In this document: in pieces, positions 1,494 to 59,906 of the stretch
Layout of the letters: each line of letters opens with the position of its first letter
How positions within the stretch are numbered: the first letter of the stretch is position 1
Origin: Kiloniella laminariae
GTDB lineage: Bacteria > Pseudomonadota > Alphaproteobacteria > Kiloniellales > Kiloniellaceae
Length of the DNA: 64,000 nucleotides
Reading direction: 5' to 3'
Assembly (NCBI RefSeq): GCF_027214005.1
Contig: NZ_JAPWGY010000002.1
Location: 186,001 to 250,000 of the forward strand
The notes under the pieces: generated by a model
Database searches by the model: none
What the model saw: only the letters and a program-made list of their open reading frames with translations
What the model was told of the DNA's origin: nothing
Program-made: the position numbers and the translations under genes

Positions 1494-2948
1494 TTATACC
1501 CCGGCTGGCATATTCTCTGCCTTGCGCTCAACCTTGCGTGGCGCGGTGATTTCTTTCCACTTGGACAGGGCCTTGTTCACGGCCGGGTAAGGATCACGCC
1601 CGACAAACTCACCATGTCCCGGCTCAACCTTAACAGCAGACTCTTCAATCGCCACCTTGCCGCGTGTCAGAGTGAAGCGTGGCAGTCCGGTAACCTTCTT
1701 TCCTTCAAAGACATTGTATTCGATAACTGACTGCTGTGATTTGGCCGTAATGGTTTTGGATCGGTTGGGATCCCAGACCACCAGATCAGCATCAGCACCG
1801 ACCATAACAGCACCTTTTTTCGGATACATGTTCAGGATTTTGGCAATATTGGTCGAGGTCACGGCAACAAATTCGTTCATGGTCAAACGCCCCGTTGCAA
1901 CGCCATAGGTCCAGAGCATGGGCATACGGTCTTCCAACCCACCTGTTCCGTTCGGAATCTTTGTAAAATCACCAATTCCAAAACGTTTCTGATCCACTGT
2001 AAAGGCACAGTGATCCGTCGCCACAACCTGTAACGACCCCGACTGAAGGCCCGCCCAGAGACTATCCTGATGCATCTTATTCCGGAATGGAGGTGACATG
2101 ACGCGCTGGGCTGAATGGTCCCAATTGGGATTGGCATATTCACTTTCGTCCAGCGTCAAATGCTGGATCAGAGGTTCGCCGAATACCCGCATACCCTTTT
2201 GTCGTGCCCGGCGGATCGCCTCGTGTGCCTGCTCACAAGAAGTATGAACGATATAAAGCGGTACACCCGCCATATCAGCAATCATGATTGCCCGGTTGGC
2301 GGCTTCGCCTTCCACTTCCGGGGGCCGGGAATAGGCGTGGGCTTCCGGACCATTATTCCCTTCCGCCAGAAGTTTTTGCTGCAGCGTTGCCACAACATCC
2401 CCATTCTCGGCATGAACCAGCGGCATGGCCCCCAGCGCAGAGCAGCGTTGGAACGAGGCGAACATCTCGTCATCATCGACCATCAGTGCGCCTTTGTAGG
2501 CCATAAAATGCTTGAAGGTGTTGATCCCGCGACCAACGACCTCTTCCATTTCATCGAATACCTTCTCGCCCCACCAGGTCACAGCCATATGATAGGAATA
2601 ATCTGCACAGGCAGAACCGGATTTCTGCTGCCAGATTGCCAGGGCCTCCATCAGGGACTGACCGGGAGAAGGCAGGCAAAAATCCACCACCATGGTCGTT
2701 CCACCAGCAAGGCCCGCCCGGGTGCCGCTTTCAAAGTTATCGGCAGAGTGTGTGCCCATAAAAGGCATCTCAAGATGGACATGCGGGTCAATCCCACCCG
2801 GCATGATGTAACAGCCCGTCGCATCCAGCGTCTCATTGGCCGAAAGATTCTGGCCAATTTCTACAATCTTGCCGCCTTCAACTTTCACATCGGCCTTATA
2901 GGAAAGATCGGCCGTAACAACTGTCCCGCCCTTGATAACTTTACTCAT
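1494..2948 (-). CDS. hydA: Dihydropyrimidinase (D-hydantoinase)
   Basis: Cytoplasmic zinc amidohydrolase that opens the ring of 5,6-dihydrouracil or dihydrothymine to N-carbamoyl-beta-amino acids, the second step of the reductive pyrimidine pathway. The metal-binding HVH is at residues 57-59 in GGIDPHVHLEMPF. The lysine that is carboxylated in the family is Lys152 in FMAYKG. Further metal-site histidines are in PLVHAENG (about 179) and VHTSCEQA (about 235), and the TDHCAF motif is near 315. Length 484 aa is normal. The gene is 14 bases from the upstream hydrolase gene, so the two are certainly co-transcribed, and it sits in a cluster with PreT/PreA, which supply its substrate. Confidence 0.95.
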   Translation of the reverse strand: MSKVIKGGTVVTADLSYKADVKVEGGKIVEIGQNLSANETLDATGCYIMPGGIDPHVHLEMPFMGTHSADNFESGTRAGLAGGTTMVVDFCLPSPGQSLMEALAIWQQKSGSACADYSYHMAVTWWGEKVFDEMEEVVGRGINTFKHFMAYKGALMVDDDEMFASFQRCSALGAMPLVHAENGDVVATLQQKLLAEGNNGPEAHAYSRPPEVEGEAANRAIMIADMAGVPLYIVHTSCEQAHEAIRRARQKGMRVFGEPLIQHLTLDESEYANPNWDHSAQRVMSPPFRNKMHQDSLWAGLQSGSLQVVATDHCAFTVDQKRFGIGDFTKIPNGTGGLEDRMPMLWTYGVATGRLTMNEFVAVTSTNIAKILNMYPKKGAVMVGADADLVVWDPNRSKTITAKSQQSVIEYNVFEGKKVTGLPRFTLTRGKVAIEESAVKVEPGHGEFVGRDPYPAVNKALSKWKEITAPRKVERKAENMPAGV

Positions 2949-2962: not shown

Positions 2963-4213
2963 TTATTTGAAGATTTCGGCAGTTTCAACAACAGCATGGA
3001 ACAGAACATCTGCTCCCGCAGCAGCCCATTCCGGTGATATTTCTTCATCCTCGTTATGGCTGAGGCCATCGACGCAAGGGCACATCACCATGGCTGTCGG
3101 GGCTACACGGTTAACCCAGCAGGCGTCGTGTCCGGCACCAGAGACGATATCCCGGTGGCTGTAACCCAGGCGAATTGCTGCATTGCGAACCGCTGCGACA
3201 CAGGTCTCATCAAACTTGACCGGATCAAAGGCACCGACCTGTTCGATTTCCATCTTCAGCCCCAGTTCTTCAATAAGCTCCTGGCCTTCATAACGAAGCG
3301 CCTGCTCCATTGCCGTAATCACGTCCTTTTCCGGGTGACGGAAATCAATGGTGAAAACCGCTTTTCCCGGAATGATATTGCGGGAGTTCGGATAGATGTC
3401 CATATGCCCGACAGCACCGACGGCATGCGGTGCAAAACGCCAGGCAATGTCATTGACCAGCTCGGTAATCCGCGCAGCACCGAGGCCAGCATTAACCCGC
3501 TTGGGCATTGGTGTTGAACCGGTGTGGCTTTCCTTGCCGGTCAGGGTAACCTGTAACCAGTTCAGCCCCTGCCCATGGGTAACAACACCGATGTCCACTT
3601 TTTCATCTTCCAGAATAGGTCCTTGTTCAATATGCAGCTCAAACATGGCATGTAGCTTGCGCGCACCAACCGGCTCATCCCCGATAAAGCCGATGCGTTT
3701 CAGTTCATCACCAAATTTTTTGCCCTCGGCATCTTCCCGGGCATAGGCCCAGTCCTGAGTATGAACCCCTGCAAAAACCCCGGATGCCAGCATGGCCGGA
3801 GCAAAACGGGTGCCTTCCTCGTTGGTCCAGTTTACAACTTCGATTGCCCGTTTGGTTTTGATGCCCATGTCATTGAGCGTACGAATGATTTCAAGTCCGG
3901 CGAGCACACCCAGCACACCGTCATACTTGCCGCCCGTTGGCTGTGTATCCAGATGAGACCCGACCATTACCGGAAGAAGGCTGGGATCTGTTCCTTCATG
4001 ACGGGCAAACATATTGCCCATAGAGTCAATCCCGACAGTCATCCCCGCCTCTTCACACCAGCGTGCAAAAAGATGCCGTCCTTCAGCATCTTCATCCGTC
4101 AGCGTCTGACGGTTGTTACCCCCGCGCACTCCAGGACCAATTTTGGCTATTTCCATCAGGGATTCCCAAAGCCTTGGGGAATTAATATGCATATTATCAG
4201 CTGGTTTACTCAT
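2963..4213 (-). CDS. M20-family Zn-dependent amidohydrolase, probable beta-ureidopropionase
   Basis: Hydrolyses an N-carbamoyl group to amine, CO2 and ammonia. Next to dihydropyrimidinase the expected substrate is N-carbamoyl-beta-alanine or its 2-methyl analogue. The family (HyuC/AllC/M20) also includes allantoate amidohydrolase. Metal ligands fit the family: His88 in GSHLDT, Asp99 in GGKYDG, Glu132/133 in NEEGTRF, plus ELHIEQGP further on. I chose the ATG at 4213 because a GGGAG ribosome-binding site (4221-4225) precedes it; an in-frame ATG at 4234 would add seven residues with no such site. Length is then 416 aa. It follows mmsA after an intrinsic terminator. It could also act on allantoate, since no allantoicase is present in the window. 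Confidence 0.85.
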   Translation of the reverse strand: MSKPADNMHINSPRLWESLMEIAKIGPGVRGGNNRQTLTDEDAEGRHLFARWCEEAGMTVGIDSMGNMFARHEGTDPSLLPVMVGSHLDTQPTGGKYDGVLGVLAGLEIIRTLNDMGIKTKRAIEVVNWTNEEGTRFAPAMLASGVFAGVHTQDWAYAREDAEGKKFGDELKRIGFIGDEPVGARKLHAMFELHIEQGPILEDEKVDIGVVTHGQGLNWLQVTLTGKESHTGSTPMPKRVNAGLGAARITELVNDIAWRFAPHAVGAVGHMDIYPNSRNIIPGKAVFTIDFRHPEKDVITAMEQALRYEGQELIEELGLKMEIEQVGAFDPVKFDETCVAAVRNAAIRLGYSHRDIVSGAGHDACWVNRVAPTAMVMCPCVDGLSHNEDEEISPEWAAAGADVLFHAVVETAEIFK

Positions 4214-4260
4214 CAGAACGCTCCCGGAAATCACTTATATTTTCTTACATCTACATTTGA

Positions 4261-4300: not shown

Positions 4301-5797
4301 TTATTCCATATTGGGGAAGGTAAAGACCGCGCCTTCCTTGATCCCCGCAGGCCAGCGTGTGGTTACTGTCTTGAGGCGGGTGTAAAAGCGGATACCTTCT
4401 GGCCCGTAGATAGAATGGTCTCCGAACAGTGACCGCTTCCACCCCCCAAAGGAATGATAGGCTACTGGCACAGGAATTGGTACGTTAACGCCGACCATAC
4501 CGACCTCAATTGAATCTGCAAAAGTACGCGCAGTATCTCCATCGCGCGTAAAGATCGCAGTACCATTGCCATATTCATGTTTGTTGATCAGATCCACCGC
4601 CTGATCAAAATCCTTGGCGCGCAGCACCGACAGGACAGGGCCAAAGATCTCTTCTTTGTAAATTGTCATGTCAGGCGTCACACGATCAAAAAGCGTGCCC
4701 CCGACAAAATATCCGTTTTCATACCCCTGAAGCTTAAAGCCCCGACCATCCACGACCAGTTCCGCTCCCGCATCAACACCCTGCTGGATGTATCCCAGAA
4801 CTTTTTCCTGATGCGCTTTGGTAATCACAGGTCCCATATCTGCATCGGCATCAGTGCTTGGTCCAATACGCATGCTCTGGACACGGGGCGCCAGAGTTTC
4901 GATCAGCTTGTCAGCAGTTTCCTCCCCGACAGGCACAGCAACAGAAATCGCCATACAACGCTCGCCTGCTGAACCGTAACCTGCCCCCATCAGGGCATCG
5001 GCGACCTTGTCCATATCCGCATCCGGCATAACGATCATGTGATTTTTGGCTCCGCCGAGCGCCTGCACCCGTTTTCCTTTGGCAGTACCGCGGGAATAGA
5101 CATATTCGGCGATCGGCGTAGACCCGACAAAAGAGATTGCCTTGACATCAGGATGGTCCAGAAGCGTATCGACCGCCTCCTTGTCCCCATGAACCACATT
5201 AAGAACGCCAGCGGGAAAACCTGCCTGTTGAAAGAGATCCCAGACCAGCATCGGCGCAGAGGGGTCACGCTCGGAAGGTTTCAATACAAAAGTATTGCCA
5301 CAGGCAATCGCGACCGGATACATCCACATCGGCACCATCGCCGGGAAATTAAACGGGGTAATACCCGCAACAACACCAAGAGGTTGTCTGTCTGAATAGC
5401 TGTCAACCTGCGGGCCGACATTCCTGCTGAATTCACCTTTGAGAAGATGCGGAATACCACAGGCAAACTCGACCACTTCAATTCCTCGGGCGACTTCACC
5501 CAATGCATCATCGTGGGTTTTCCCGTGTTCGCGGCTGATTTCTCGTGCAATATCTGCTGCATGCCGATCAAGTAATTCCTTGAACTTGAACATATAACGG
5601 GCACGCTTCAAAGGAGGCGTCGCCCCCCAGTCCTTAGCCGCCGCTTTCGCAGCAGCAACGGCTTCATTCACTTCCTCCACCGTCGAAAGAGGAAGCTCTG
5701 CGATCTGTTCTCCCGTCGCAGGATTGAATATCTGCGAGGTACGAGAACTGCTGGAAAGGCGTTTTTCACCTGCAATCGCGTTATTGATCCGTTCCAT
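4301..5797 (-). CDS. mmsA: CoA-acylating methylmalonate-semialdehyde dehydrogenase
   Basis: Aldehyde dehydrogenase family enzyme that converts (methyl)malonate semialdehyde with NAD+ and CoA to propionyl- or acetyl-CoA and CO2. It is the last step for the beta-alanine and beta-aminoisobutyrate released by pyrimidine breakdown, after a transaminase that is not seen here. The catalytic Cys281 lies in GSAGERCMAIS, the oxyanion-hole Asn150 in TPFNFPAM, and the conserved GGAKNH at 248-253. Length 498 aa is normal for MmsA/IolA. Its promoter must lie in the 5798-6328 region, which carries RutR operators and is shared with the divergent regulator genes. An intrinsic terminator follows directly. Confidence 0.93.
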   Translation of the reverse strand: MERINNAIAGEKRLSSSSRTSQIFNPATGEQIAELPLSTVEEVNEAVAAAKAAAKDWGATPPLKRARYMFKFKELLDRHAADIAREISREHGKTHDDALGEVARGIEVVEFACGIPHLLKGEFSRNVGPQVDSYSDRQPLGVVAGITPFNFPAMVPMWMYPVAIACGNTFVLKPSERDPSAPMLVWDLFQQAGFPAGVLNVVHGDKEAVDTLLDHPDVKAISFVGSTPIAEYVYSRGTAKGKRVQALGGAKNHMIVMPDADMDKVADALMGAGYGSAGERCMAISVAVPVGEETADKLIETLAPRVQSMRIGPSTDADADMGPVITKAHQEKVLGYIQQGVDAGAELVVDGRGFKLQGYENGYFVGGTLFDRVTPDMTIYKEEIFGPVLSVLRAKDFDQAVDLINKHEYGNGTAIFTRDGDTARTFADSIEVGMVGVNVPIPVPVAYHSFGGWKRSLFGDHSIYGPEGIRFYTRLKTVTTRWPAGIKEGAVFTFPNME

Positions 5798-6228: not shown

Positions 6229-6244
6229 TTTACCTGGTGGTCAA
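6229..6244. promoter_or_regulatory. Degenerate third RutR-like site
   Basis: The 16-mer matches TTGACCA-N2-TGGTCAA at 12 of 14 defined positions; the right half TGGTCAA is perfect and the left half has two mismatches. It lies 26 bases, centre to centre, from the next site. It is weaker than the two sites to its right and may be chance. Confidence 0.35.
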
Positions 6245-6254
6245 ATTTTATTTC

Positions 6255-6270
6255 CTGACCATTTGGTCAA
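6255..6270. promoter_or_regulatory. RutR-type operator 1
   Basis: CTGACCATTTGGTCAA is a 14-bp perfect palindrome (TGACCA-TT-TGGTCA) and differs at one position from the TTGACCA-N2-TGGTCAA consensus known for E. coli RutR. It lies between mmsA and the two RutR-like genes, so it can serve both directions. Confidence 0.85.
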
Positions 6271-6287
6271 GTTAACGCTACTAAACC

Positions 6288-6303
6288 TTGACCAAATGGT
6301 CAA
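6288..6303. promoter_or_regulatory. RutR-type operator 2
   Basis: TTGACCAAATGGTCAA is an exact match to the RutR consensus. Its centre is 33 bases from that of operator 1, close to three helical turns, which would allow cooperative binding. It lies 25 bases before the chosen start codon of the first regulator gene, so it should mediate autoregulation. An ATG inside the palindrome (6296) is a possible but unlikely start. Confidence 0.9.
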
Positions 6304-6328: not shown

Positions 6329-7039
6329 ATGAAAAAATCGGAAAGAGTAAAAAAAACCACTGCCAAAGCCGGAATAAGACAGGAAAATGAAAAGATAATC
6401 CTCAAAGCTGCCGAAAGTGTTTTTGCCGAATACGGTTTCCGCGGGGCGACCACCAGCATGATTGCCGAGCAGGCAAACATCCCGAAAGCCAACCTGCATT
6501 ACTACTTCCCGACCAAAGAGGCACTGTATCGGCAGGTAGTGGACAACATTTTCAACATCTGGCTTCAGGCAGCAGACTCCTTTGACGACTGCGATGACCC
6601 GGTTGAGGCGCTCAGTCGCTACATCGAGAAAAAAATGGATATCTCACGGGACAACCCCATGGGCTCCAAAGTCTGGGCCAATGAGATCATCCAGCGCGCG
6701 CCGGTTATTCAGGACTATCTTGAAACCACACTCAAGGACTGGACGGAATCGCGAGCCGTGATTATCCGCAGGTGGATTGCCCAGGGAAAGATCAACCCGA
6801 TTGATCCGCAATATCTGTTGTATATGATCTGGTCAACGACCCAGCATTACGCCGATTTCAACCATCAGATCGAAACTCTCAATGGCGGCACCCCTCTCAG
6901 CGACGCACAATACCGGGTCGCGAAGGACAATGTTATCGAGATCATACTTACCGGCATCGGTGCCGTCCAGCGCCGCCGCAACAGCCTGCTTCAGGATAAC
7001 AGTCCCAAAGACCAGCAAGAAAAGAGTGACAGGGCATGA
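6329..7039 (+). CDS. rutR: RutR-like TetR-family regulator (first of a tandem pair)
   Basis: Pyrimidine-responsive repressor of the TetR family. The N-terminal helix-turn-helix spans about residues 38-60 (ATTSMIAEQANIPKANLHYY). The C-terminal part carries the RutR-type features WANEIIQRAP and YMIWSTTQHYADF. The reading frame stays open upstream, but those earlier Met codons (6218, 6296) lie before or inside the operators, so I chose ATG 6329, giving 236 aa, close to the 212 of the usual family. The gene overlaps the next one by ATGA. Exact RutR operators just upstream support both the identity and autoregulation. The ligand in the family is uracil or thymine. Confidence 0.88.
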   Translation: MKKSERVKKTTAKAGIRQENEKIILKAAESVFAEYGFRGATTSMIAEQANIPKANLHYYFPTKEALYRQVVDNIFNIWLQAADSFDDCDDPVEALSRYIEKKMDISRDNPMGSKVWANEIIQRAPVIQDYLETTLKDWTESRAVIIRRWIAQGKINPIDPQYLLYMIWSTTQHYADFNHQIETLNGGTPLSDAQYRVAKDNVIEIILTGIGAVQRRRNSLLQDNSPKDQQEKSDRA

Positions 7040-7674
7040 GTCCAAGAGCCGGACAAACAAAAAAACGCACCCGTATTCAGGCAATCAACGAAGAAAAAAT
7101 TGTCGAGGCTGCTCTGGAGATCTTTGCCACTTTCGGTTTCAGAGGCACCACCATAGATCAGATCGCCCAGAAGGCCGAGATGTCCAAGCCGAACCTTCTG
7201 TACTATTTCAGACGTAAAGAAGACATCTATATCTCTGTTTTACGGCGAACCCTGGAAGAGTGGTTAACGCCCCTCACCGCGCTTAATCCTAAGGGTGATC
7301 CCCTGGAGGAGATCAGCAAATACACTGCCCTTAAACTGGAAATGTCGCGCAAAAATCCGACCGCTTCCCGTCTCTTTGCCAACGAAATTCTTCACGGCGC
7401 CCCGATGATCGAAGATGTACTCAAGGGATCACTCAAACAGCTGGTTGATGAAAAGGCGGCAGTAATCGGCAACTGGGTCAAGGAAGGAAAATTGGCTCAG
7501 GTTGACCCTTATCACCTGATTTTCATGATCTGGGCCACGACCCAACACTATGCCGACTTCAAAGTCCAGATGCATGCAATACTGGGCAAAACAGTCGACG
7601 CGCCTGATTATTACGAACAGGCAGGCACAACCATCAACGCCATTTTCCTCGAAGGACTGAAACCAAGAAGCTGA
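7036..7674 (+). CDS. RutR-like TetR-family regulator (second of a tandem pair)
   Basis: A 212-residue paralogue of the preceding regulator, starting inside its stop codon (ATGA). The helix-turn-helix is at about residues 38-58 (TTIDQIAQKAEMSKPNLLYY). The ligand-domain signatures FANEILHGAPMI and FMIWATTQHYADF are those of RutR. The recognition helices of the two proteins differ (IPKANLHYYF versus MSKPNLLYYF), so they may read related but different operators. A candidate is the TTTATCA-N2-TGATAAA palindrome before preT. It may also form heterodimers with its neighbour. The gene converges on the DMT permease gene with 23 bases between. Confidence 0.87.
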   Translation: MSPRAGQTKKRTRIQAINEEKIVEAALEIFATFGFRGTTIDQIAQKAEMSKPNLLYYFRRKEDIYISVLRRTLEEWLTPLTALNPKGDPLEEISKYTALKLEMSRKNPTASRLFANEILHGAPMIEDVLKGSLKQLVDEKAAVIGNWVKEGKLAQVDPYHLIFMIWATTQHYADFKVQMHAILGKTVDAPDYYEQAGTTINAIFLEGLKPRS

Positions 7675-8681: not shown

Positions 8682-9989
8682 TTATTCAGCAGCCTTTATC
8701 GCACTGGGGTTATTGGGATGGGTTGTCCAGTTCGCATAGCTGGGGTCAATCGGCTTGTTCGTGCGCGGATCAGTACCTTCGGTCATCTGCACCATAGAAA
8801 TACAGTCTTCAACCGGACAGACACTGACGCAAAGATTACAACCGACACATTCATCATCGATCACCTCGAACTTGCGCACACCATCGACCGTTGCGGTAAT
8901 TGCCTGATGCGACGTATCTTCACAGGCAATATGGCAACGTCCACACTTGATGCACAGATCCTGATCAATCGATGCCTTGGCAATATAGTTCAGGTTGAGG
9001 TACTTCCAATCGGTAACATTAGGCACAGCCTGACCAACAAAATCATCAAGCGAGCTGTAACCCTTTTCATCCATCCAGTTGGAAAGACCTTCGGCCAGTT
9101 CCGTCACAATTTTGAAGCCATAGGTCATGGCCGCTGTACAGACCTGAACGTTACCAGAGCCCAGAACCATAAATTCTGCTGCATCTTTCCAGGTAGTGAT
9201 TCCCCCAATGCCGGAGATCGGCAAGCCTTGCGTTTCCGGATCACGGGCAATTTCCGCAACCATATTCAAGGCAATCGGCTTCACCGCCGGGCCGCAATAG
9301 CCCCCGTGCGTCCCCTTGCCATCTACCGTCGGTGTCGGCGCCATCAGATCGAGGTCAACCCCGACTATCGAGTTGATGGTATTGATCAGGGAAACCGCAT
9401 CAGCGCCACCGCGATGTGCAGCCCTTGCTGACTGACGTACATCAGAAATGTTTGGCGTCAACTTGACGATAACCGGCAGATCGGAATGGGTTTTGCACCA
9501 GCGGGTCACCATCTCGACATATTCCGGTACCTGGCCAACGGCTGCACCCATGCCCCGTTCTGACATCCCGTGCGGGCACCCGAAGTTCAGCTCGATCCCG
9601 TCACAGCCGGTTTCTTCAACACGCTTGAGAATGTTGATCCAGTTCTGTTCTTCACAGGGCACCATCAAAGAGACAATCAACGCCCGGTCCGGCCAGTTCT
9701 TCTTGACCCGGGTGATTTCCTCTAGGTTGATTTCCAAAGAGCGATCCGTAATCAGCTCGATGTTATTAAGCCCAAGCAAACGACGGTCATTCCCGTGGAT
9801 CGCGCCATAACGGGGGCCATTGACGTTGACCACATGCGGGTTTTCGCCCAGGGTTTTCCAGACAACGCCCCCCCAGCCTGCTTCATAGGCCCGAACAACA
9901 TTGTATTCTTTATCCGTTGGTGGAGCAGATGCGAGCCAGAACGGATTGGGGGATTTAATACCCAGAAAATTGCTACTGATATCAGCCAT
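8682..9989 (-). CDS. preA: NAD-dependent dihydropyrimidine dehydrogenase, subunit PreA
   Basis: Catalytic subunit of the PreTA complex, which reduces uracil or thymine to the 5,6-dihydro form. Residues 1-330 form the FMN-binding TIM-barrel domain of the dihydroorotate dehydrogenase type (start FLGIKSPNPFWLASAPPT; ELNFGCPHG in the active region). Two [4Fe-4S] motifs follow: CIKCGRCHIAC at 346-356 and CVGCNLCVSVC at 381-391. Length 435 aa agrees with the family, with a short extra C-terminal tail. It follows preT by 64 bases on the same strand and feeds dihydropyrimidinase. Confidence 0.95.
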   Translation of the reverse strand: MADISSNFLGIKSPNPFWLASAPPTDKEYNVVRAYEAGWGGVVWKTLGENPHVVNVNGPRYGAIHGNDRRLLGLNNIELITDRSLEINLEEITRVKKNWPDRALIVSLMVPCEEQNWINILKRVEETGCDGIELNFGCPHGMSERGMGAAVGQVPEYVEMVTRWCKTHSDLPVIVKLTPNISDVRQSARAAHRGGADAVSLINTINSIVGVDLDLMAPTPTVDGKGTHGGYCGPAVKPIALNMVAEIARDPETQGLPISGIGGITTWKDAAEFMVLGSGNVQVCTAAMTYGFKIVTELAEGLSNWMDEKGYSSLDDFVGQAVPNVTDWKYLNLNYIAKASIDQDLCIKCGRCHIACEDTSHQAITATVDGVRKFEVIDDECVGCNLCVSVCPVEDCISMVQMTEGTDPRTNKPIDPSYANWTTHPNNPSAIKAAE

Positions 9990-10053: not shown

Positions 10054-11409
10054 TCAGGCATTCAGGAAAGCGTTGATTGCTTCAGCAGCAACCTTGCCAT
10101 CCTCTACCGCAGCAACTGTCAGGTCCTCGCCACCAGCGATACAATCGCCGCCGGCCCAGACATCCCCCAGACTTGTCCGGCGGTCTTCACCAACCCGAAT
10201 TCGTCCACTCTCAAGTTCAACAACTTCCGCTGATCCATTCAGAGGAGCAGCGATAAAATTCTGGCCAATTGCTTTGAAGACCATATCGGCATTCAGGGTA
10301 AAGGTTTCCCCTGTCCCTTTCAGGGAGCCGGATGTGTTCTCCGTATATTCACACTCTATGGCACTTACCTTGCCATTTACACCGATCAGGCGATTGGGTT
10401 TGACCCAATGGCGAATGGTGACGCCTTTGGTTTGGGCCAGATCCTGCTCATACTCACTGGCATTCATCTGCTCTTTGCCGCGGCGATAAAGAATCGTGAC
10501 TTCTTCCGCCCCGAGAAGCTTCGACTGCACAGCTGCATCAACCGCGGTCATCCCGCCACCGATCACAACCACCTTCCGGCCGACGGGAAGCACCGACAGA
10601 TCCTTGCTTTGACGCAGATCTGAAATATAGGAGACCGCGTCAACAACGCCTTCAAGATCCTCGCCCTCAGCCCGCAGTGCATTGACCCCAGCCAGGCCCA
10701 TACCAAGGAAAACGGCATCATATTTTTGGCGCAATTCAGCGAGGGAAAGATCTTTTCCAAGGCCCTTACCCAACTCAAGGGTAATTCCTCCGATCGACAG
10801 CAAAAACTCGACTTCCCGCTGGGCAAAATTATCAACTGATTTATATGCGGCAATACCATATTCATTGAGGCCGCCAGCTTTTTTACGGGCATCATAGACG
10901 GTAACATCATGCCCGTGCATAGCAAGGCGATGTGCGCAAGAAAGTCCGGCAGGCCCCGCGCCGACCACCGCAATTTTCCGTCCCGTCAGGGCCGCACGTT
11001 CAAAGACCTTGTCCCCCTCTTCCAACAGATGATCTGTTGCATAACGTTGCAGCAGGCCGATCTTGACTGGCTTGCCTTCTGCTTCTTGACGGACACAGGC
11101 CTGTTCACACAGGGTTTCTGTCGGACAAACACGGGCACACATCCCCCCGAGAATATTCTCTTCGAAGATTGTCTTTGCTGCGCCCTTCACGTTATCCGCG
11201 GAAATCTGGCGGATAAACATGGGAATATCAATTGATGTTGGGCAAGCCACTGTGCAGGGCGCGTCATAGCAGAAATAACAACGGTCTGCCTCTACATACG
11301 CCTCGTGGCTGGCAAGTGGTGGATGGATATCGCCAAAATTCTTGCTGTATTCTTCCTGGGCAAGACGGCTGGATCGGATATCCGGCCCTTCACCGGTTTT
11401 TATAGTCAT
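10054..11409 (-). CDS. preT: NAD(P)-dependent oxidoreductase subunit PreT
   Basis: Electron-entry subunit of the dihydropyrimidine dehydrogenase complex, passing electrons from NADH through FAD and Fe-S clusters to PreA. The N-terminal GltD-like Fe-S domain has two cysteine groups (residues 44, 47, 52, 56 and 91, 95, 101, 105). The FAD site GAGPAG is at 150-155, and the NADH-binding VVVIGGGMTAVDAA is near 280. Length is 451 aa, about 40 residues longer than the E. coli protein. It is the first gene of a preT-preA-DMT unit whose promoter lies in the AT-rich region 11410-11727. Confidence 0.95.
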   Translation of the reverse strand: MTIKTGEGPDIRSSRLAQEEYSKNFGDIHPPLASHEAYVEADRCYFCYDAPCTVACPTSIDIPMFIRQISADNVKGAAKTIFEENILGGMCARVCPTETLCEQACVRQEAEGKPVKIGLLQRYATDHLLEEGDKVFERAALTGRKIAVVGAGPAGLSCAHRLAMHGHDVTVYDARKKAGGLNEYGIAAYKSVDNFAQREVEFLLSIGGITLELGKGLGKDLSLAELRQKYDAVFLGMGLAGVNALRAEGEDLEGVVDAVSYISDLRQSKDLSVLPVGRKVVVIGGGMTAVDAAVQSKLLGAEEVTILYRRGKEQMNASEYEQDLAQTKGVTIRHWVKPNRLIGVNGKVSAIECEYTENTSGSLKGTGETFTLNADMVFKAIGQNFIAAPLNGSAEVVELESGRIRVGEDRRTSLGDVWAGGDCIAGGEDLTVAAVEDGKVAAEAINAFLNA

Positions 11410-11727
11410 CCCTATACTCCCTGACGGATATTTTGTGACGTACGTTTTTTATTATTTTGTATTTTGATTTTATTTTTTGTACACGACCCGCTCTCTTTAT
11501 CCGGAGCGGTGTCATCCCTGTTATTCCCAGTATGATAAGTATAAATTTATCACACAGTCAATTTTTTTATCATTTGATAAATTTTTTTAGCTGAACAAAA
11601 ACAGCAATCTCGAAGCACATCGAATCAACCCTTTGAAAAATCTACAATATAATTATATATCCCACCGGAATTTGTCCTGTGATATACTGCCTATGCTCGC
11701 GACATAACAAAGCCAGGATGCCCCAGA
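11410..11727. other. AT-rich divergent promoter region of preT and the orphan binding protein
   Basis: No gene is seen. The region is markedly AT-rich. It contains a CCGCTC/GAGCGG hairpin (11488-11509), an inverted repeat TGATAA-N8-TTATCA (11533-11552) and the perfect palindrome at 11566-11581, which share the TTATCA element. Promoters for both divergent genes must lie here. Confidence 0.6.
11566..11581. promoter_or_regulatory. Palindromic operator candidate upstream of preT
   Basis: TTTATCATTTGATAAA is a perfect 16-bp palindrome with the same 7-2-7 layout as the RutR operators (TTGACCA-N2-TGGTCAA) but a different half-site. A second TTATCA inverted repeat lies 20-30 bases to the left. It may be read by the second RutR-like protein. 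Confidence 0.6.
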
Positions 11728-39609: not shown

Positions 39610-39676
39610 ATTCCGGTAATATCGGAATAATATGCAAAAACGGGGCACGGATAACGGTCCCGGAAAACCGGATAAA

Positions 39677-39705
39677 ATCAGCCCCTGCCCCACGCAGGGG
39701 CTGAT
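39677..39705 (+). other. Strong hairpin between the binding protein and guaD
   Basis: ATCAGCCCCTGC pairs perfectly with GCAGGGGCTGAT (12 bp, 5-base loop). No T-run follows, so it is more likely an mRNA-stability or processing element that keeps the binding-protein mRNA in excess. The rest of the 253-base gap shows no gene. Confidence 0.55.
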
Positions 39706-39862
39706 GCCGGGAACAACCAGTCTGACGCGCGATTAATGAAATCCCCGGACTGATCATATAACAAACAGGTATAAATAACGGGTTCAGAGTGTGATTGGTG
39801 ACAATCGCAGGAACATCCTGCGCGCCAGAATCATGAAGCACGTCTACAGATAGGGTCATGTC

Positions 39863-53232: not shown

Positions 53233-53860
53233 AACTCACGCCTTATGTAATTTCTCGCTGACGATTATCCGGTTTCGCGCCACATCCAGGGCAGCGGTCG
53301 GCATTTCACTGCCTGTTTTAACTACTTGAGCGCCAAGGTCAAGTATTCCCTTGGTTTGCAGACGCAGACCAACCATGCAGAATCAGCGCCACTAAAAATA
53401 TGACAAGGCGTAATTTAACAGGGAGCAGCCGATCAGAATAGATCCCAATTCTGAAATTTCCATAAAACTTCCAAGAAACCTCTTGGCTTTTACTTCAGAA
53501 ACCCTTGCCATAAAGGAAAAGAAAAATATCAAATACTCTGAACAATATCATTCCCGTAGCTGTCTCTCCTGAAGGTCATCCAAAGAATTCTCAGGATATT
53601 TTTCCGTTTTATTTGACCGTTTGATCAAATAAAACTAGCATTGCTCTTGCGGTTAAATAAAAACGCACCCGGATCAACCAGGGTCGTACTAAAACTCTAT
53701 TCTTCATCTATCCGTATGCGGAACCTTCCCTTCGCAGTGAATGTTCCGATCGAACAAATAAGAATGAAATTATTGGAAAACAGCTGGATAGCCCCGCTCG
53801 TGGAAGCCTTCTATCCTGTATTTCTGATTAAATCGCACAATGAATCCAGGGAGGGATCTC
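53233..53860. other. Long non-coding region before the second BMP importer
   Basis: This 628-base region carries no convincing gene; the open frame from 53641 overlaps the importer gene in another frame and has no family features. Its main feature is the RutR-like operator at 53606-53635, with a possible promoter in which TTGACC (53613-53618) and TAGCAT (53636-53641) are 17 bases apart. The transcript would then have a leader of more than 200 bases. GGAGGGA precedes the importer start. Confidence 0.6.
53606..53635. promoter_or_regulatory. RutR-like operator in front of the second BMP importer
   Basis: The core TTGACCGTTTGATCAA (53613-53628) matches the RutR consensus TTGACCA-N2-TGGTCAA at 12 of 14 positions. 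Outside it the dyad extends perfectly over GTTTTA/TAAAAC, making a 30-base dyad with two inner mismatch pairs. The TTGACC also fits a -35 element, so binding would block the promoter. Confidence 0.7.
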
Positions 53861-54865
53861 ATGACAACTTTATCAAGACGGACGCTACTCGCTCTTGCCG
53901 GGGCAGGTTTAACAACCTTGGCTTTGGGCTCGACACCCGGTTTTGCCAAGACTCTGAAAGTCGCGGGAATTTACACACAGCCTATCCAGCAAAAATGGGA
54001 CGCGCGCCTGCATCAGGCACTGGTCGCTGCCCAAGAAGCCGGTGAAATCGAGTATGTATTTTCCGAAAAGGTTTCCAACACTGACTATATCCGTGTACTT
54101 CGGGAATATGCAGAAGGAAAAGCTGATCTGATCGTCGGCGAAGCTTTCGGCATCAGCAAGGAAGCCCGCAAGGTAGCCGATGACTACCCCGAAGTTGCCT
54201 TTCTCATGGGCGACCCTTTCAAAGCCCATGGCAGTAACTTCTCTGTCTTTGATAACTACATCCATGAACCCTGTTATCTCATGGGCATAATTGCCGGAAG
54301 CATGAGCAAAGCTGGCAAGATTGGCATGGTCGGTGGCTATCCTATCGGCGAGGTCAACCGCCTGTTCAATGCGTTCATGGCCGGTGCCCGCTCGGTTAAC
54401 CCAGAAGTTCAGTTCAAAGTGACCTTCATCGGCTCCTGGTACGATCCTCCCAAAGCCAAAGAAGCAGCCTTTGCCCAGATCGAGGCTGGTGTTGACGTCC
54501 TCTATGCCGAACGCGCCGGGGTGGTTGATGCAGCCAGAGACAAAGGTATTCTCGCCTTTGGCAATGTCAATGACATGAACAAGGAAGAAAACGGGACTGA
54601 TGTCGTTGTTACCTCGGCCCTCTGGCATATGGAAAATGCCATCGGACACGCCATTGAACAGGTCAAGGCAGGGACTTTCGAAGCCGCGGATTACAAAGAA
54701 TGGACCATGATGCAAAAAGGCGGCGCATCGCTGGCTCCCTACTACGAGTTCGACAACAAGATCCCCCCGGAAGCCAAAGCAAAGGTCGAAGAGATCAAGG
54801 CAGACATCCTTTCTGGCAGCTTTGTTGTCGAGATTGATGACAACGAACCCAAATCAACTTACTGA
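53861..54865 (+). CDS. BMP-family substrate-binding protein with Tat signal (pyrimidine cluster)
   Basis: Periplasmic nucleoside/nucleobase receptor of 334 aa. Residues 1-29 form a twin-arginine signal (SRRTLLAL, then a hydrophobic stretch, cleavage near GFA-K). The mature start TLKVAGIYTQPIQQKWD and GKADLIVGEAFG are of the BMP family. I chose ATG 53861 because GGAGGGA lies before it; the frame opens seven codons earlier. It differs from the Sec-exported receptor of the purine cluster. Expected cargo is cytosine or another pyrimidine, from codA at the end of the operon. Confidence 0.9.
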   Translation: MTTLSRRTLLALAGAGLTTLALGSTPGFAKTLKVAGIYTQPIQQKWDARLHQALVAAQEAGEIEYVFSEKVSNTDYIRVLREYAEGKADLIVGEAFGISKEARKVADDYPEVAFLMGDPFKAHGSNFSVFDNYIHEPCYLMGIIAGSMSKAGKIGMVGGYPIGEVNRLFNAFMAGARSVNPEVQFKVTFIGSWYDPPKAKEAAFAQIEAGVDVLYAERAGVVDAARDKGILAFGNVNDMNKEENGTDVVVTSALWHMENAIGHAIEQVKAGTFEAADYKEWTMMQKGGASLAPYYEFDNKIPPEAKAKVEEIKADILSGSFVVEIDDNEPKSTY

Positions 54866-54871
54866 GAACAA

Positions 54872-54915
54872 CCGTCTCTCCGGAGCTGAAAAGGGTATCC
54901 GCTCCGGAGAGACGG
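54872..54915 (+). other. 15-bp intercistronic hairpin after the binding-protein gene
   Basis: CCGTCTCTCCGGAGC pairs perfectly with GCTCCGGAGAGACGG (14-base loop), seven bases past the stop codon. No T-run follows. It should stabilise the 3' end of the binding-protein mRNA or act as a partial stop before the ATPase gene. Confidence 0.8.
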
Positions 54916-54988
54916 GTTGCTTTCCCATGTAAACGGGTTCTTTGCTGCATGATCTCGACAAAGAGCCCGTCAATATCCGGGGATCCAA

Positions 54989-56590
54989 ATGGCGCTTCTG
55001 GCCTTCCATCATATTACCAAGAGATTTGGTTCTCTGATTGCCAACAATGACATCACCCTGTCACTGGAAAGTGGCGAAGTTCTTGCCTTGCTCGGAGAAA
55101 ACGGCGCTGGCAAAACCACCTTGATGAATATTCTCTACGGTCACTATTTGGCCGATGAAGGATATATCGAGGTTGATGGCACTCCCCTGCCCCCCGGATC
55201 GACGGATGCCGCGATCAAGGCAGGCATTGGCATGGTTCATCAGCATTTCACCCTGGCTGAAAACCTCACCGTCCTCGAAAACATCATGCTGGGAACCGAA
55301 AGTCTCTGGTCCCTGTCGCAAAAACAGACCGCTGCCCGCAAAAAGCTGGCACAGATGTCACTGGACTACGGCCTTGCGGTAGCACCAGATGCTCCTGTAT
55401 CAGCGCTTTCCGTCGGCGAGCGCCAGCGGGTTGAGATTCTCAAGGCGCTTTATCGCGATGCACGGGTCCTGATTCTTGACGAGCCAACAGCCGTATTGAC
55501 CCCTCAAGAAGCAGAAAGCCTGTTCAGCACACTGGAAAGCCTGACAAAAAGAGGCTTTGCCATTATATTCATCTCCCACAAGTTACACGAGATCCTGCGC
55601 ATCAGTGACCGGGTTGCGGTTCTCCGTCGGGGACAGATTGTCGGCTCTGTGGCAACAGCCGATGCCGATCGTTCAAGTCTGGCTGAAATGATGGTCGGCC
55701 GAAAAGTTGAACGCCCAAGCCTTGACCCAATGGCAACAGGCAAAGCTGTCGTCAGGCTTGAAGGGGTAACCCTCCAGAACAGAAATGAAGTCCCGACACT
55801 GGACCAGATCAGTCTTACAGTTCATCAGCATCAGATCATCGGGATTGCAGGTGTTGCCGGGAATGGGCAATCTGCACTGGCCGACCTGCTTAGCGGCCTC
55901 TCCAGCCCGACAAAGGGTACGTTTGAATTGCTCGGCCAGGCCGTCACCAGGGCGTCGCCCGCTGACATTGTTCACAGGGGTGTTGGACGTATCCCGGAAG
56001 ACCGTCACCATAGCGGCGTGGTGGGTGACATGACGCTCTGGGAAAACCTGGTCAGTGAGGACCTGCGTGTTCCCCCTGTCTCTCGCGGCGGCTTTCTCAT
56101 CGACCAGAAAGCTTGCATAAAACGGGCAGAACGTCTGATCGAACAATTTGATATCCGCTGTGAAGGTCCCGAAGCAGAGACAAAACTTCTCTCTGGCGGC
56201 AATATGCAAAAACTTATTCTGGCGCGCGCGCTCTCCCCAAACCCGGGCTTTATCCTTGCCAACCAGCCTGTACGTGGCCTGGATGAAGGGGCAATTGCCT
56301 ATGTACATGGACAGTTGCTGGCAGCACGCGAACGCGGTGCAGGTATTCTGCTGATTTCCGAAGACCTTGATGAACTGTTTTCGCTTTGTGATCGCATCGC
56401 TGTAATTTACCACGGAAAACTGACCCGCAGCTTTGATGCAAAATCCGTCACCGCTGGGCAGCTTGGCCTTATGATGGCCGGACAGGATCCCGGGGATATA
56501 GAGCTTCCCTCAGAACAGACGATTGAACAGGCAAAAGCATCTATTTCTGATACTCTTCAAGATCAGGGGACGAAGATCCATGCAGATTGA
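54989..56590 (+). CDS. BMP-type ABC importer, ATPase (pyrimidine cluster)
   Basis: A 533-residue double ABC protein homologous to the one in the purine cluster. Domain 1: Walker A GENGAGKTT (about 35-43), LSVGERQRVE, Walker B VLILDEPTAVLTP. Domain 2: degenerate GVAGNGQSA, LSGGNMQKLI and NQPVRGLDEG. It is 123 bases after the binding-protein gene, and its end overlaps the first permease gene by eleven bases. Confidence 0.92.
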   Translation: MALLAFHHITKRFGSLIANNDITLSLESGEVLALLGENGAGKTTLMNILYGHYLADEGYIEVDGTPLPPGSTDAAIKAGIGMVHQHFTLAENLTVLENIMLGTESLWSLSQKQTAARKKLAQMSLDYGLAVAPDAPVSALSVGERQRVEILKALYRDARVLILDEPTAVLTPQEAESLFSTLESLTKRGFAIIFISHKLHEILRISDRVAVLRRGQIVGSVATADADRSSLAEMMVGRKVERPSLDPMATGKAVVRLEGVTLQNRNEVPTLDQISLTVHQHQIIGIAGVAGNGQSALADLLSGLSSPTKGTFELLGQAVTRASPADIVHRGVGRIPEDRHHSGVVGDMTLWENLVSEDLRVPPVSRGGFLIDQKACIKRAERLIEQFDIRCEGPEAETKLLSGGNMQKLILARALSPNPGFILANQPVRGLDEGAIAYVHGQLLAARERGAGILLISEDLDELFSLCDRIAVIYHGKLTRSFDAKSVTAGQLGLMMAGQDPGDIELPSEQTIEQAKASISDTLQDQGTKIHAD

Positions 56591-57629
56591 ATTACGCGAA
56601 CACATCGCCCCCTGGCGCATCGCCTTGGCACCTGTCGCAGCCGTCGCCGTATCACTCTTGCTGGGTTCGATCCTTATCCTCTGGGTTGGTGCCTCGGTCA
56701 GCGAGGCCTATCTTCTCCTGGTCAAGGGTGCACTTGGTTCAAGCTTTGCCCTTACAGAAACCTTTACCCGCTCTATCCCGCTGATTTTCACCGGGCTGGC
56801 TGCGGCTATCGCTTTTCGGGCAAGATTTTACAATATTGGTGGTGAAGGACAGCTTTATTGCGGGGCACTCGCGGCAACTTTTTTTGGCACAGGACTGGTC
56901 ACTTTGCCGCCCCTGTTGATGATCCCCTTTCTGATGCTGGTTGGCGCGCTGGCCGGAGGCGCCGCGCTGGCGGTGCCGGTTCTGCTGAAAACGCATCTGA
57001 AAGTTGACGAGGTTGTCACCACGCTACTGCTGAATTTTGTCATTCTGTTGTTTGTCGGCTATCTGCTCGAAGGTCCATGGAAAGATCCCATGTCCATGGG
57101 CTGGCCCCAGAGCGAGTCCATCATTGATGAAGGGGTCTTCCCGAAACTGGTTGATAAAAGCCGCCTGCATTTTGGCCTTCTGTTTGCCGTGATCGGATCG
57201 GTTCTTTGCTGGGCGATGATGCGCTTTACGGTTTGGGGCTACGAAATCCGGGCCGTCGGGCACAATCCTTCTGCTGCCCGCTTTTCCGGGATCAACGTCA
57301 ATGCCACGGTGATCAGAACCGCCTTGATCAGCGGCGGTTTTGCAGGACTGGCCGGAGTCAGTGAGGTCGCCGGATTGAAAGGCTACCTTACACTCGATAT
57401 TTCCCCCGGCTTTGGCTATACCGGCATAGCTGTCGCCATGCTGGCCCAACTGCACCCCATGGCCGTGATCCTCTCTGCCCTTTTTATCTCCATGATCTAT
57501 GTCGGCGCTGATTCCATGAGCCGGGCCGTCAACATCCCGACCTATATTGCCGATGTCTTGGTTGGCTTGTCCGTCCTTTCCATACTCGTCAGTGTCATGC
57601 TGACCCGTTACCGTCTGCGCTGGAGATAG
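56580..57629 (+). CDS. BMP-type ABC importer permease 1 (pyrimidine cluster)
   Basis: A 349-residue permease of the NupB type, with FRARFYNIGGEGQLYCGALA (about 79-98) as the family mark. I chose ATG 56580, which lies inside the end of the ATPase gene with AGGGGA before it; the open frame reaches further upstream but in overlap with the ATPase. It is followed by permease 2 after four bases. Confidence 0.92.
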   Translation: MQIELREHIAPWRIALAPVAAVAVSLLLGSILILWVGASVSEAYLLLVKGALGSSFALTETFTRSIPLIFTGLAAAIAFRARFYNIGGEGQLYCGALAATFFGTGLVTLPPLLMIPFLMLVGALAGGAALAVPVLLKTHLKVDEVVTTLLLNFVILLFVGYLLEGPWKDPMSMGWPQSESIIDEGVFPKLVDKSRLHFGLLFAVIGSVLCWAMMRFTVWGYEIRAVGHNPSAARFSGINVNATVIRTALISGGFAGLAGVSEVAGLKGYLTLDISPGFGYTGIAVAMLAQLHPMAVILSALFISMIYVGADSMSRAVNIPTYIADVLVGLSVLSILVSVMLTRYRLRWR

Positions 57630-57633
57630 GATC

Positions 57634-58581
57634 ATGCTCGATATTTTCGACATTTTGATATCCGCTGGTTTCTGGGCCGCAACACTGCGCATTGTCAGCC
57701 CCCTGATCCTTGGAACATTGGGCGAGCTGATCTGCGAACGGGCTGGCGTGCTCAATCTCGGGATCGAAGGCATCATGACCATGGGTGCCATGTGTGGCTG
57801 GATGTGGGTCTATATGGGGGGGGATCTCTGGAGTGGTGTGCTTTTCGCGGCCTTTGTCGGGGCCCTCTTTGGCCTGCTCCACAGCAGCTTTACAGTCTAC
57901 CTTGGCTTGTCCCAGCACGTCACCGGGATCGGCATTACCCTCTTTGCATCCTCTCTAAGCTATTACGTCTTTCGCATGCTTTTGCCCAATGCGACCACAC
58001 CACCGAAAATCGTGCCCTTCCAACCATACGAGATCCCGCTCTTGTCCGATATTCCCGTTGTTGGGGAGGCCCTCTTCTCTCAGACACCTCTGACCTACCT
58101 GGCTTTGCTGCTGGTCCCTGCTGTCTGGTATGTACTCTACAAGACGCCTGTTGGTCTCGCCGTGCGCATGGCCGGGGAAAACCCCATGGCCGTCGAGGCC
58201 CAGGGGATCAATGTACTCTCCATACGCACAGGAGCCGTCATGGTCGGCAGCGCTTTCATGGCCGTCGGTGGAGCCTTCATCACCATGTCGGCCTTTGATG
58301 CTTTCTATTTTGGCATGATCAATGGTCGTGGCTGGATCTGTGTTGCACTGGTTATTTTTGCCTCCTGGAGACCCGGAAAAGCCCTGATTGGCGCCCTGCT
58401 TTTTGCCGGGCTGGATGCTCTGCAGGTTCGGGCACAACAAATGGCAGGCGCCATTATCCCCTATCAGTTTTTCCTGATGTTGCCCTATATTCTCAGCATC
58501 GTTGCCATGGTGATCATGGCGCGCCGGGCCAGCTACCCTCAGGCTCTGCTCACACCTTTCCGACGTGGTGAACGGACATAA
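57634..58581 (+). CDS. BMP-type ABC importer permease 2 (pyrimidine cluster)
   Basis: A 315-residue permease of the NupC type, with CERAGVLNLGIEGIMTMGAM (about 33-52). About eight to ten hydrophobic segments. It completes a full importer with the three genes before it, and codA follows after 41 bases. Confidence 0.92.
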   Translation: MLDIFDILISAGFWAATLRIVSPLILGTLGELICERAGVLNLGIEGIMTMGAMCGWMWVYMGGDLWSGVLFAAFVGALFGLLHSSFTVYLGLSQHVTGIGITLFASSLSYYVFRMLLPNATTPPKIVPFQPYEIPLLSDIPVVGEALFSQTPLTYLALLLVPAVWYVLYKTPVGLAVRMAGENPMAVEAQGINVLSIRTGAVMVGSAFMAVGGAFITMSAFDAFYFGMINGRGWICVALVIFASWRPGKALIGALLFAGLDALQVRAQQMAGAIIPYQFFLMLPYILSIVAMVIMARRASYPQALLTPFRRGERT

Positions 58582-58622
58582 CCGATAACCCGATAACACC
58601 TTTCTAGCCAGCGGACACTCCC

Positions 58623-59906
58623 ATGCTTGACCTCCTCATCAAAAACGCCAGCCTGCCCGACGGGCGCAAGAATATGGATATTGCCATTTCTGCAGACCGC
58701 ATCGTCGCGGTAGAGCCTAACATTACGACGGGGATCGAAGTAGGCAAAACCCGGATTGTAGATGCCGTAGGTCATCTGCTCAGTCCGCCCTTTATCGATC
58801 CGCATTTTCATCTTGATTCAACGCTCAGCCTTGGCCAACCCCGTCTGAATGAAAGCGGTACTCTACTGGAAGGCATCCAGCTCTGGGGAGAGCTGAAACC
58901 CCATCTGACCGCCGAAGCTATAAAAAAACGTGTTCATGCCCTCGCCCGCTGGTCCATAGCCCGTGGCACACTTGCCATCCGTAGCCATGTCGACACCAGC
59001 GATGATCGCCTCCTGGCGGTCGAGGCATTGCTTGAAGCCCGCAAGGAGCTGGCCCCCTGGATCGATATCCAGCTGGTCGCCTTTCCCCAGGACGGGTATT
59101 TCCGCTATGGCAAGGCCGCAGAAAACCTGAAACGGGCTCTGGATCTCGGTGTTGATGTGGTCGGTGGTATCCCCCATTTCGAGCGCACCATGGAAGATGG
59201 CGCTCGTTCGGTCACAGCGCTTTGTGAAATTGCCGCCAAACGCGGTCTGATGGTTGATATGCACTGCGATGAAACCGACGACCCCCTGTCCCGTCACATT
59301 GAAACCCTGACCGCGGAAACCATGCGTCTTGGATTACAGGGCCGGGTTGCCGGATCGCATCTGACCTCCATGCACTCCATGGACAACTACTACGTCAGCA
59401 AGCTGTTACCTTTGATACGCGAGGCAGACATCACTGCCATCCCCAATCCCCTGATCAACATTACGCTGCAGGGACGGCACGACAGCTATCCCAAACGCCG
59501 TGGCATGACACGGATCAAGGAAATGACCACCATGGGGATCAATGTCGCCCTCGGCCACGACTGTGTGATGGACCCCTGGTACAGCTTTGGCAGTCACGAC
59601 ATGCTCGAAGTCGCGCACATGGCTACCCATGTAGGTCAGATGACGGGCGTCTCGGAAACCCGCGCCATGTTTGCCGCCGTGACCGAGAACTCTGCCAGGG
59701 TTATGCACCTTCCCGATTATGGTATCGAGAAAGGCAACTACGCTGACCTCGTCATCCTTCAGGCGCGTGATGCGATCGAAGCCATCCGCCTTCGCCCGGC
59801 CCGGCTGTTTGTTATCCGACGGGGACAAATCATCAGTACGACAGCCCCGGTTACGGCAGAACTGGACCTGAACGGGAAGCGAGAGACCGTCGATTTCCTC
59901 AGGTAA
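58623..59906 (+). CDS. codA: Cytosine deaminase
   Basis: Metal-dependent amidohydrolase converting cytosine to uracil and ammonia. The metal site HFH is at 61-63, exactly where E. coli CodA has it (His61, His63). Other matching parts are IRSHVDTSD, PWIDIQLVAFPQ, DMHCDETDD, the TLQGRHDSYPKRRGMTRIKE region (about 280-299) and GHDCVMDPWY with the catalytic Asp. Length 427 aa equals CodA. Uracil made here is the substrate of PreTA in region 1. Confidence 0.94.
   Translation: MLDLLIKNASLPDGRKNMDIAISADRIVAVEPNITTGIEVGKTRIVDAVGHLLSPPFIDPHFHLDSTLSLGQPRLNESGTLLEGIQLWGELKPHLTAEAIKKRVHALARWSIARGTLAIRSHVDTSDDRLLAVEALLEARKELAPWIDIQLVAFPQDGYFRYGKAAENLKRALDLGVDVVGGIPHFERTMEDGARSVTALCEIAAKRGLMVDMHCDETDDPLSRHIETLTAETMRLGLQGRVAGSHLTSMHSMDNYYVSKLLPLIREADITAIPNPLINITLQGRHDSYPKRRGMTRIKEMTTMGINVALGHDCVMDPWYSFGSHDMLEVAHMATHVGQMTGVSETRAMFAAVTENSARVMHLPDYGIEKGNYADLVILQARDAIEAIRLRPARLFVIRRGQIISTTAPVTAELDLNGKRETVDFLR

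Follow-up and report, generated by a model that had tools for sequence, protein, structure and literature searches.

The window analysed here is a stretch of 64,000 nucleotides from Kiloniella laminariae (contig NZ_JAPWGY010000002.1, positions 186,001 to 250,000; all coordinates below are those of the window). It carries a five-gene unit, made up of a BMP-family ABC (ATP-binding cassette) importer and a CodA-family deaminase, with a palindrome resembling the operator of the pyrimidine regulator RutR in front of it. The gene content given in an earlier reading of the window (hereafter the original prediction) holds, namely a BMP receptor, an ATPase, two permeases and a CodA-family enzyme. On the comparisons presented below, we consider it highly probable that these five genes form a RutR-repressed unit that imports and deaminates an amino-pyrimidine base. 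The features of the unit and its upstream region are as follows.

53606..53635, no strand, extended dyad around the operator (24 of 30 bases complementary, counted by eye)
53613..53628, no strand, predicted RutR-type operator TTGACCGTTTGATCAA, with left half TTGACCG (class I) and a right half that reads TTGATCA and tends towards class II
53613..53641, + strand, promoter-like TTGACC-17-TAGCAT, with the -35 element inside the operator
53840..54865, + strand, BMP-family substrate receptor (PF02608) with an ER-x-G loop in its pocket, from profile and alignment
54989..56590, + strand, ABC ATPase of the importer
56580..57629, + strand, permease subunit 1 (BPD_transp_2); the start was chosen at 56580, and the listed open reading frame (ORF) opens at 56523
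57634..58581, + strand, permease subunit 2 (BPD_transp_2)
58623..59906, + strand, cytosine-deaminase-family enzyme with Cys at the position of Escherichia coli Asp314, a candidate cytosine/5-methylcytosine deaminase

The predicted operator and its conservation

The palindrome TTGACCGTTTGATCAA agrees at 12 of 14 specified positions with what we take to be the RutR consensus, TTGACCANNTGGTCAA, presumably forming a 16-bp palindrome, TTGACCAnnTGGTCAA. The same count had been given in the original prediction, whose 30-base dyad and overlap with a possible -35 element were likewise recovered: TTGACC forms the -35 part of a sigma-70-like pair with TAGCAT 17 bp further on (9/12 hexamer positions agree). 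In the available part of PMC10891134, the RutR box is described as a palindrome of approximately 16 bp. As a pattern, the promoter-like pair does not exceed the chance expectation (one found against 1.2 expected). Both hexamers and the 17-bp spacing are kept in all eight members of the genus that have the importer gene. The -10-like hexamer is TAGCAT at 17 bp in the window's genus (g1, 8/8), and it lies at 18 bp in two other genera, g2 (4/6 matches) and g3 (3/6). No Rfam RNA element matched between 53200 and 53900, up to E 1.

Sites with at most two mismatches in 14 number 71 in the genome, compared with 39 for the reversed consensus, and the site at 53613 taken alone is therefore only suggestive. 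The chance expectation of such a site in the 607-bp intergenic region before the importer is 0.005-0.01. Five RutR-like sites occur in the window: three before rutR1 (described below), another at 40797 within the ORF of guanine deaminase, and the one at 53613. Conservation across genomes provides stronger evidence for the 53613 site than these genome counts.

The family set comprises 23 genomes of the Kiloniellaceae. A receptor orthologue of at least 73% identity is present in 21 of them and absent from G006 and G010, giving 20 receptor loci for comparison besides that of the window. The original prediction had named lack of conservation of the dyad in related genomes as evidence that would count against it; the dyad is present at 12-14/14 before the importer in 13 of the 21 orthologues, distributed over three genera (g1 8/8, window included; g2 4/4; g3 1/1; g5 0/8). 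It lies 139-228 bp upstream of the (extrapolated) receptor start, and the reversed consensus reaches at most 11/14 in the same 760-bp upstream windows. Ungapped comparison of representatives of g1 with g2 and g3 shows that the 16-mer keeps 10-14 of 16 bases, whereas 120 flanking bases keep 22-32, about the level of unrelated DNA; g2 and g3 are closer to one another (13-15/16 in the 16-mer, 35-45/120 in the flanks). The outer arms of the 53606-53635 dyad are clearly kept only in the nearest species (L054).

The fourth genus, g5, presents a different arrangement. In all eight of its members, the DNA before the receptor looks, on inspection by eye, like the 3' end of a gene for dihydropyrimidinase, and tblastn confirmed this gene in three clusters. 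These three mapped clusters run dihydropyrimidinase, receptor, ATPase, permeases and deaminase on one strand, with rutR1, preT, preA, bup and ssuB near the unit in each, and RutR-type sites of 12-13/14 precede the dihydropyrimidinase in all three. With the g5 importer behind dihydropyrimidinase and sites before that gene, loss of the site before the receptor appears to accompany the joining of a pathway operon.

Two wider samples were also compared. The class sample is an even set of 190 genomes (cut-offs: receptor E 1e-50, deaminase 1e-110, RutR-like 1e-30), in which 18 have the receptor, 23 the deaminase and 26 a RutR-like gene. A RutR-like gene is found in 15/18 receptor genomes compared with 11/172 genomes without the receptor (Fisher p 8e-13, kinship uncorrected), and the deaminase lies on the same strand about 5 kb from the receptor (start to start) in 15/18. 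Sites of at least 11/14 stand upstream of seven of the 17 receptors other than that of the window (control 0/17). The named loci are the best 80 of at least 592 confirmed deaminase relatives from a scan of genome contigs. The receptor is present at 45 of them, always on the strand of the deaminase and within 8 kb, and a site of at least 11/14 precedes 20 of these 45 receptors, compared with 0/45 for the reversed consensus and 1/45 for single shuffles. Genomes of the family set recur among the named loci three times (L103 = G012, L106 = G018, L118 = G017), and the count becomes 19/42 without them. In two Cupriavidus genomes, rutR stands directly before the receptor.

Several observations weigh against a RutR-controlled unit of importer and deaminase. 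The genome-wide site counts (71 and 39, above) are weak alone, and no upstream RutR-type site was found for 10/17 class-sample receptors or, at 11/14 or better within about 350 bp, for 25/45 named receptor loci. Among the latter 25, seven have pyrimidine-degradation or rutR genes nearby and two more have ssuB- or mmsA-like genes, leaving 16 that show neither. Pyrimidine-degradation or rutR genes occur at 8/45 named loci with the receptor and at 6/35 without it, and this linkage is thus not receptor-specific. No receptor is present on the stretch at 35/80 named deaminase loci, some of these stretches being short; the two genes are far apart in G153 and on different contigs in G023 and G093. Finally, one of seven other BMP paralogues of the family genomes (L045) has an 11/14 site upstream.

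Nevertheless, the original placement of the unit in a RutR-type pyrimidine regulon, with RutR binding as a prediction, is supported by the conserved dyad, the dihydropyrimidinase fusion in a sister genus, the co-occurrence with RutR and the contact residues kept in the RutR proteins. RegPrecise has predicted proteobacterial RutR regulons in 68 genomes, with taxon-specific changes of the motif (PMC5343134, available part). We found no earlier report of the importer in a literature search that covered subscription journals little and had the RegPrecise RutR tables outside its scope, and the importer may already be listed in those tables.

At L220 (5039-10231), L222 (9160-14433) and L224 (9605-15128), RutR-like genes also adjoin a BMP importer of another kind, with a receptor identity of 26-30%. 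The deaminase described here is not on those stretches, and the cargo of these importers may also be a pyrimidine.

Receptor pocket, deaminase and candidate substrates

The receptor scores 130 bits against PF02608 (Pfam gathering score 24.1). In sequence, the solved structures closest to it are AtzT and Brucella 3S99. The structural model (predicted local distance difference test, pLDDT, 89.4) superposes on AtzT with Z 34.0 (root-mean-square deviation 2.1, 297 residues), on 3S99 with Z 32.9 (2.3, 294 residues) and on guanosine-bound Lbp 7x0r with Z 33.5, tied with AtzT. A B6-type BMP importer was considered and rejected, the scores being below the cut-offs (NF047927, 91.2 vs 400 bits; NF047930, 433.2 vs 670 bits).

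Nine site residues named in the available part of the AtzT paper fit a single numbering offset. Like the purine-binding receptors AtzT and 3S99, which are also among its nearest folds, the window receptor keeps Glu165 and the stacking Trp194, together with Phe98 of AtzT. It differs from them at Ser97 (Ala), Thr139 (Cys in place of the AtzT residue) and Asn169 (Leu), and the Asn218-Thr-Asn220 loop of AtzT is shortened to ER-A-G; the base-contact loop of purine-base BMP receptors (Asn/His218 with Asn/Asp220) is thus absent. AtzT Tyr45 is aligned to Trp53 by MAFFT, which was used here, and to Asp54 by HMMER. The ER-x-G loop is found in 45/45 deaminase-linked named receptors (a count that includes L178, which was left out of the receptor alignment) and in 17/17 other class-sample receptors, compared with 0/7 other BMP paralogues. 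The L178 receptor match (4815-5714, Methylibium sp. NZG) was left out because of an internal stop codon, which may reflect either an error of assembly or decay of the gene. As judged from these alignments, the receptor is a member of a BMP subfamily in which a shorter ER-x-G replaces the purine-reading loop, and a pyrimidine base is a plausible cargo. A search for an NCS1 cytosine permease (PF02133) found none in this genome, while the same search was positive in 4/14 named genomes.

The window also holds a purine cluster (29962-41188) with xanthine-dehydrogenase-like genes (identified by eye), a first BMP importer with a 3S99-type pocket, and guanine deaminase. No RutR-like site of 11 or more was found before the eight gene starts checked in this cluster.

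The seven catalytic residues of CodA are His61, His63, Gln156, His214, Glu217, His246 and Asp313, and all seven are present in the window deaminase. The enzyme scores 749.3 bits against the NCBIfam model PRK07572/NF005748 'cytosine deaminase' (cut-off 438), and its nearest named relative among the matches listed is from an uncultured Kiloniella (84%). Residue 314, Asp in the E. coli CodA chain 1k6w, aligns with Cys, and this Cys is found in 19/19 family copies and in 79/81 rows of the named loci. The other two rows have Gly or Ala and belong to Desulfobacter-group metagenome-assembled genomes (L111 and L125). In score, E. coli CodA (1k6w) is the nearer structure with 379 bits, and 4R7W follows with 316 bits; we take 4R7W and 4R85 to be structures of the Klebsiella pneumoniae enzyme Kpn00632. 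Rhodobacter Rsp0341 is another 5-methylcytosine deaminase. According to the available part of PMC6186785, in which residue numbers are one higher than in the 314 scheme, Asp314 is critical in that E. coli CodA is essentially unable to deaminate 5-methylcytosine and an Ala mutant is able to do so, and Kpn00632 has Ser at this discriminating position. The window enzyme resembles Kpn00632 in being a CodA-family protein that has lost the discriminating Asp; it differs in having Cys. The Cys at the Asp314 position therefore makes 5-methylcytosine, which would yield thymine, a likely substrate besides cytosine. The original prediction that a codA product makes uracil from cytosine thus stands as to family, whereas its cytosine-only picture has to be widened.

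How far it should be widened is the most serious question among the alternatives. It is quite possible, although we lean against it, that the unit handles plain cytosine only, in which case Cys314 would be a trait of the lineage and 5-methylcytosine no more than a side substrate. The score against the 'cytosine deaminase' model well exceeds its cut-off, and Cys314 is not operon-specific because it is nearly universal in the 80 best relatives, with or without the receptor; on the other side, the Asp to Ala change gives CodA activity on 5-methylcytosine and Klebsiella has Ser (PMC6186785, available part), and Cys is also small and uncharged. An importer for uracil, thymine or their reduced products, with the deaminase acting on a base made internally, would fit the fusion of the unit to dihydropyrimidinase in g5. 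We regard this as unlikely, since an NMT1/SsuABC-like ABC system in the pyrimidine cluster (named by eye and from its ssuB-type ATPase) could serve instead, and since the deaminase is part of the unit in 19/21 family loci, the stretches of the other two (L060 and L062) ending earlier.

The characterised BMP receptors raise the further alternative of a purine or nucleoside cargo, with the linkage to the deaminase being incidental. Where a ligand is named for the close solved BMP proteins, it is a purine base, a nucleoside (thymidine and uridine included) or riboflavin, and the available part of the AtzT paper gives 110 nM for guanine, 2.5 uM for adenine and 620 uM or weaker for other nucleobases. 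Such a cargo is nonetheless distinctly improbable here: the Asn218-Thr-Asn220 loop is shortened, Asn169 is replaced by Leu or Ile in 45/45 deaminase-linked named receptors, the window's first BMP receptor (BMP1), which stands beside guanine deaminase, retains the 3S99-type loop (QHTD), and the deaminase adjoins the receptor in 15/18 class-sample genomes. Very unlikely, in our view, is a dyad of some other regulator with a coincidental likeness to RutR. The right half does depart from the RutR consensus in all eight genus members, the operator being TTGACCx with TGATCAA (three genomes) or TGATAAA (five genomes). Against this, sites of 12-14/14 with TTGGTCA-type right halves precede the orthologous receptor in g2 and g3 (5/5 loci), sites stand before dihydropyrimidinase in the fused operons (3/3), and RutR and the receptor co-occur across the class sample.

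If the unit does import and deaminate an amino-pyrimidine base under RutR control, then the locus is a concrete candidate for the recycling that free 5-methylcytosine from decaying DNA needs, by a proposed route of import, deamination and ring reduction under shared uracil/thymine-sensing control. It also points to a receptor subfamily marked by the ER-x-G loop.

RutR paralogues, pyrimidine-degradation genes and two possible operator classes

The genes that would complete this route, together with two RutR-like regulators, lie elsewhere in the window.

1494..2948, - strand, dihydropyrimidinase
2963..4234, - strand, hydantoinase/carbamoylase-family amidase (bup), likely beta-ureidopropionase by context
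4301..5797, - strand, CoA-acylating methylmalonate-semialdehyde dehydrogenase (MMSDH, mmsA)
6229..6303, no strand, three class I RutR-type sites (6229, 6255, 6288) between rutR1 and mmsA, nearer rutR1
6329..7039, + strand, RutR1, TetR-family RutR-like regulator (helix PKANLHYYF)
7036..7674, + strand, RutR2, regulator placed with E. coli RutR in the tree (helix SKPNLLYYF)
8682..9989, - strand, preA, dihydropyrimidine dehydrogenase subunit
10054..11409, - strand, preT, NAD-binding subunit of dihydropyrimidine dehydrogenase, named from homology and from its place ahead of preA (no score reaches an NCBIfam cut-off)
11566..11581, no strand, class II palindrome TTTATCATTTGATAAA (TTTATCAnnTGATAAA, TTTATCAAATGATAAA) upstream of preT, identical in the 7/7 genus members readable there

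MMSDH, at which the thymine branch of the pathway ends, scores 725.2 bits (cut-off 448.5). RutR is described as uracil/thymine-sensing in the title of Shimada 2007. Both RutR1 and RutR2 match E. coli RutR, and both have all seven of the contact residues given for that protein in the available part of PMC10891134 (uracil contacts W77, Y97, W167, Q171 and Q179; DNA lysines K52 and K62). RutR2 scores 238.1 and RutR1 184.3 bits against NF011584 (cut-off 230), and 260.2 and 195.9 bits against TIGR03613 (cut-off 368). In a midpoint-rooted tree, from which reads of 150 residues or fewer were left out, RutR2 groups with E. coli RutR and RutR1 falls in another clade (helix mostly PKANxHYYF). The system thus resembles the E. 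coli RutR regulon in its TetR-family repressor, conserved uracil and DNA contacts, palindrome of about 16 bp and pyrimidine-degradation targets (PMC10891134, available part). It differs in its predicted targets, which are the reductive pathway together with the BMP importer and its deaminase where E. coli uses the Rut pathway. It also has a pair of RutR paralogues and, perhaps, operators of a second class.

The sites that the original prediction placed at 6255-6303 are real (6255-6270, 13/14; 6288-6303, 14/14), and a third was found at 6229 (12/14). The distance to rutR1 is 26-100 bp, that to mmsA exceeds 430 bp, and RutR control of the mmsA side is inferred. In the nearest relative (L190, genome G007, 5693-7426), mmsA is missing between bup and rutR1, and the RutR-type sites are kept.

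The proposed mechanism for the importer unit begins with a RutR dimer on 53613-53628, which would cover the -35 element and block transcription. RutR would be released by the uracil or thymine that the deaminase forms, as E. coli RutR and the conserved ligand residues suggest. The BMP-type importer would then take up cytosine and/or 5-methylcytosine, and the CodA-family enzyme would yield uracil and/or thymine, the case for thymine resting on residue 314. From there, PreTA, dihydropyrimidinase, the amidase and MMSDH, all encoded apart from the unit, would be expected to break these bases down to beta-alanine or beta-aminoisobutyrate and then, with a transaminase acting in between, to acetyl-CoA or propionyl-CoA. 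Joint derepression of the unit with these genes, also part of the original prediction, fares differently for its two halves. It is plausible for mmsA, bup and dihydropyrimidinase because three consensus sites lie in the rutR1-mmsA intergenic region, whereas preTA was rejected as a consensus RutR target in Kiloniella, its best match being only 10/14 and its upstream region holding another palindrome.

This palindrome, TTTATCAAATGATAAA, is unchanged in the seven genus members readable there (the window and L190-L195; L196 is cut), and the window's genome has no other match to it with one mismatch or fewer. It shares with the RutR box the 7-2-7 geometry and five of seven half-site letters, and could represent either a second RutR-like operator class or the site of another regulator. 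The importer operator is a hybrid of class I and class II halves in all eight genus members. Outside the genus, T at half-site position 3 or 5 occurs in 1/44 half-sites of loci for which RutR1-type genes alone were found, 7/14 with the RutR2 type alone and 4/12 with both (RutR1-only vs RutR2-only, Fisher p 8e-5, for half-sites that are not independent and were picked by likeness to either consensus). Three genomes lie outside this count, namely G191 and, in addition, G055 and G184, in which the two types are encoded apart from each other and the only site at rutR1 is of class I. At the three counted loci with both RutR types, the site before preT carries a half with T at position 3 or 5.

Both the hybrid operator and the separate preT palindrome would be accounted for if the two RutR paralogues preferred different half-sites. 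We therefore put forward, tentatively and with some doubt, that the tandem paralogues split the pyrimidine regulon by operator class, with RutR1 acting on TTGACCA half-sites (rutR1-mmsA intergenic region) and RutR2 on TTTATCA-like half-sites (preTA). The hybrid importer promoter might then respond to a heterodimer of RutR1 and RutR2 or to the two proteins jointly, which would tie (5-methyl)cytosine uptake to both branches. If true, such paired operator classes and paralogues would illustrate how a regulon is divided between duplicated repressors.

The NMT1/SsuABC-like ABC importer named by eye is another candidate for pyrimidine transport; it lies in the pyrimidine-degradation cluster, at 493-1380 of the window and at 9397-13381 of L199.

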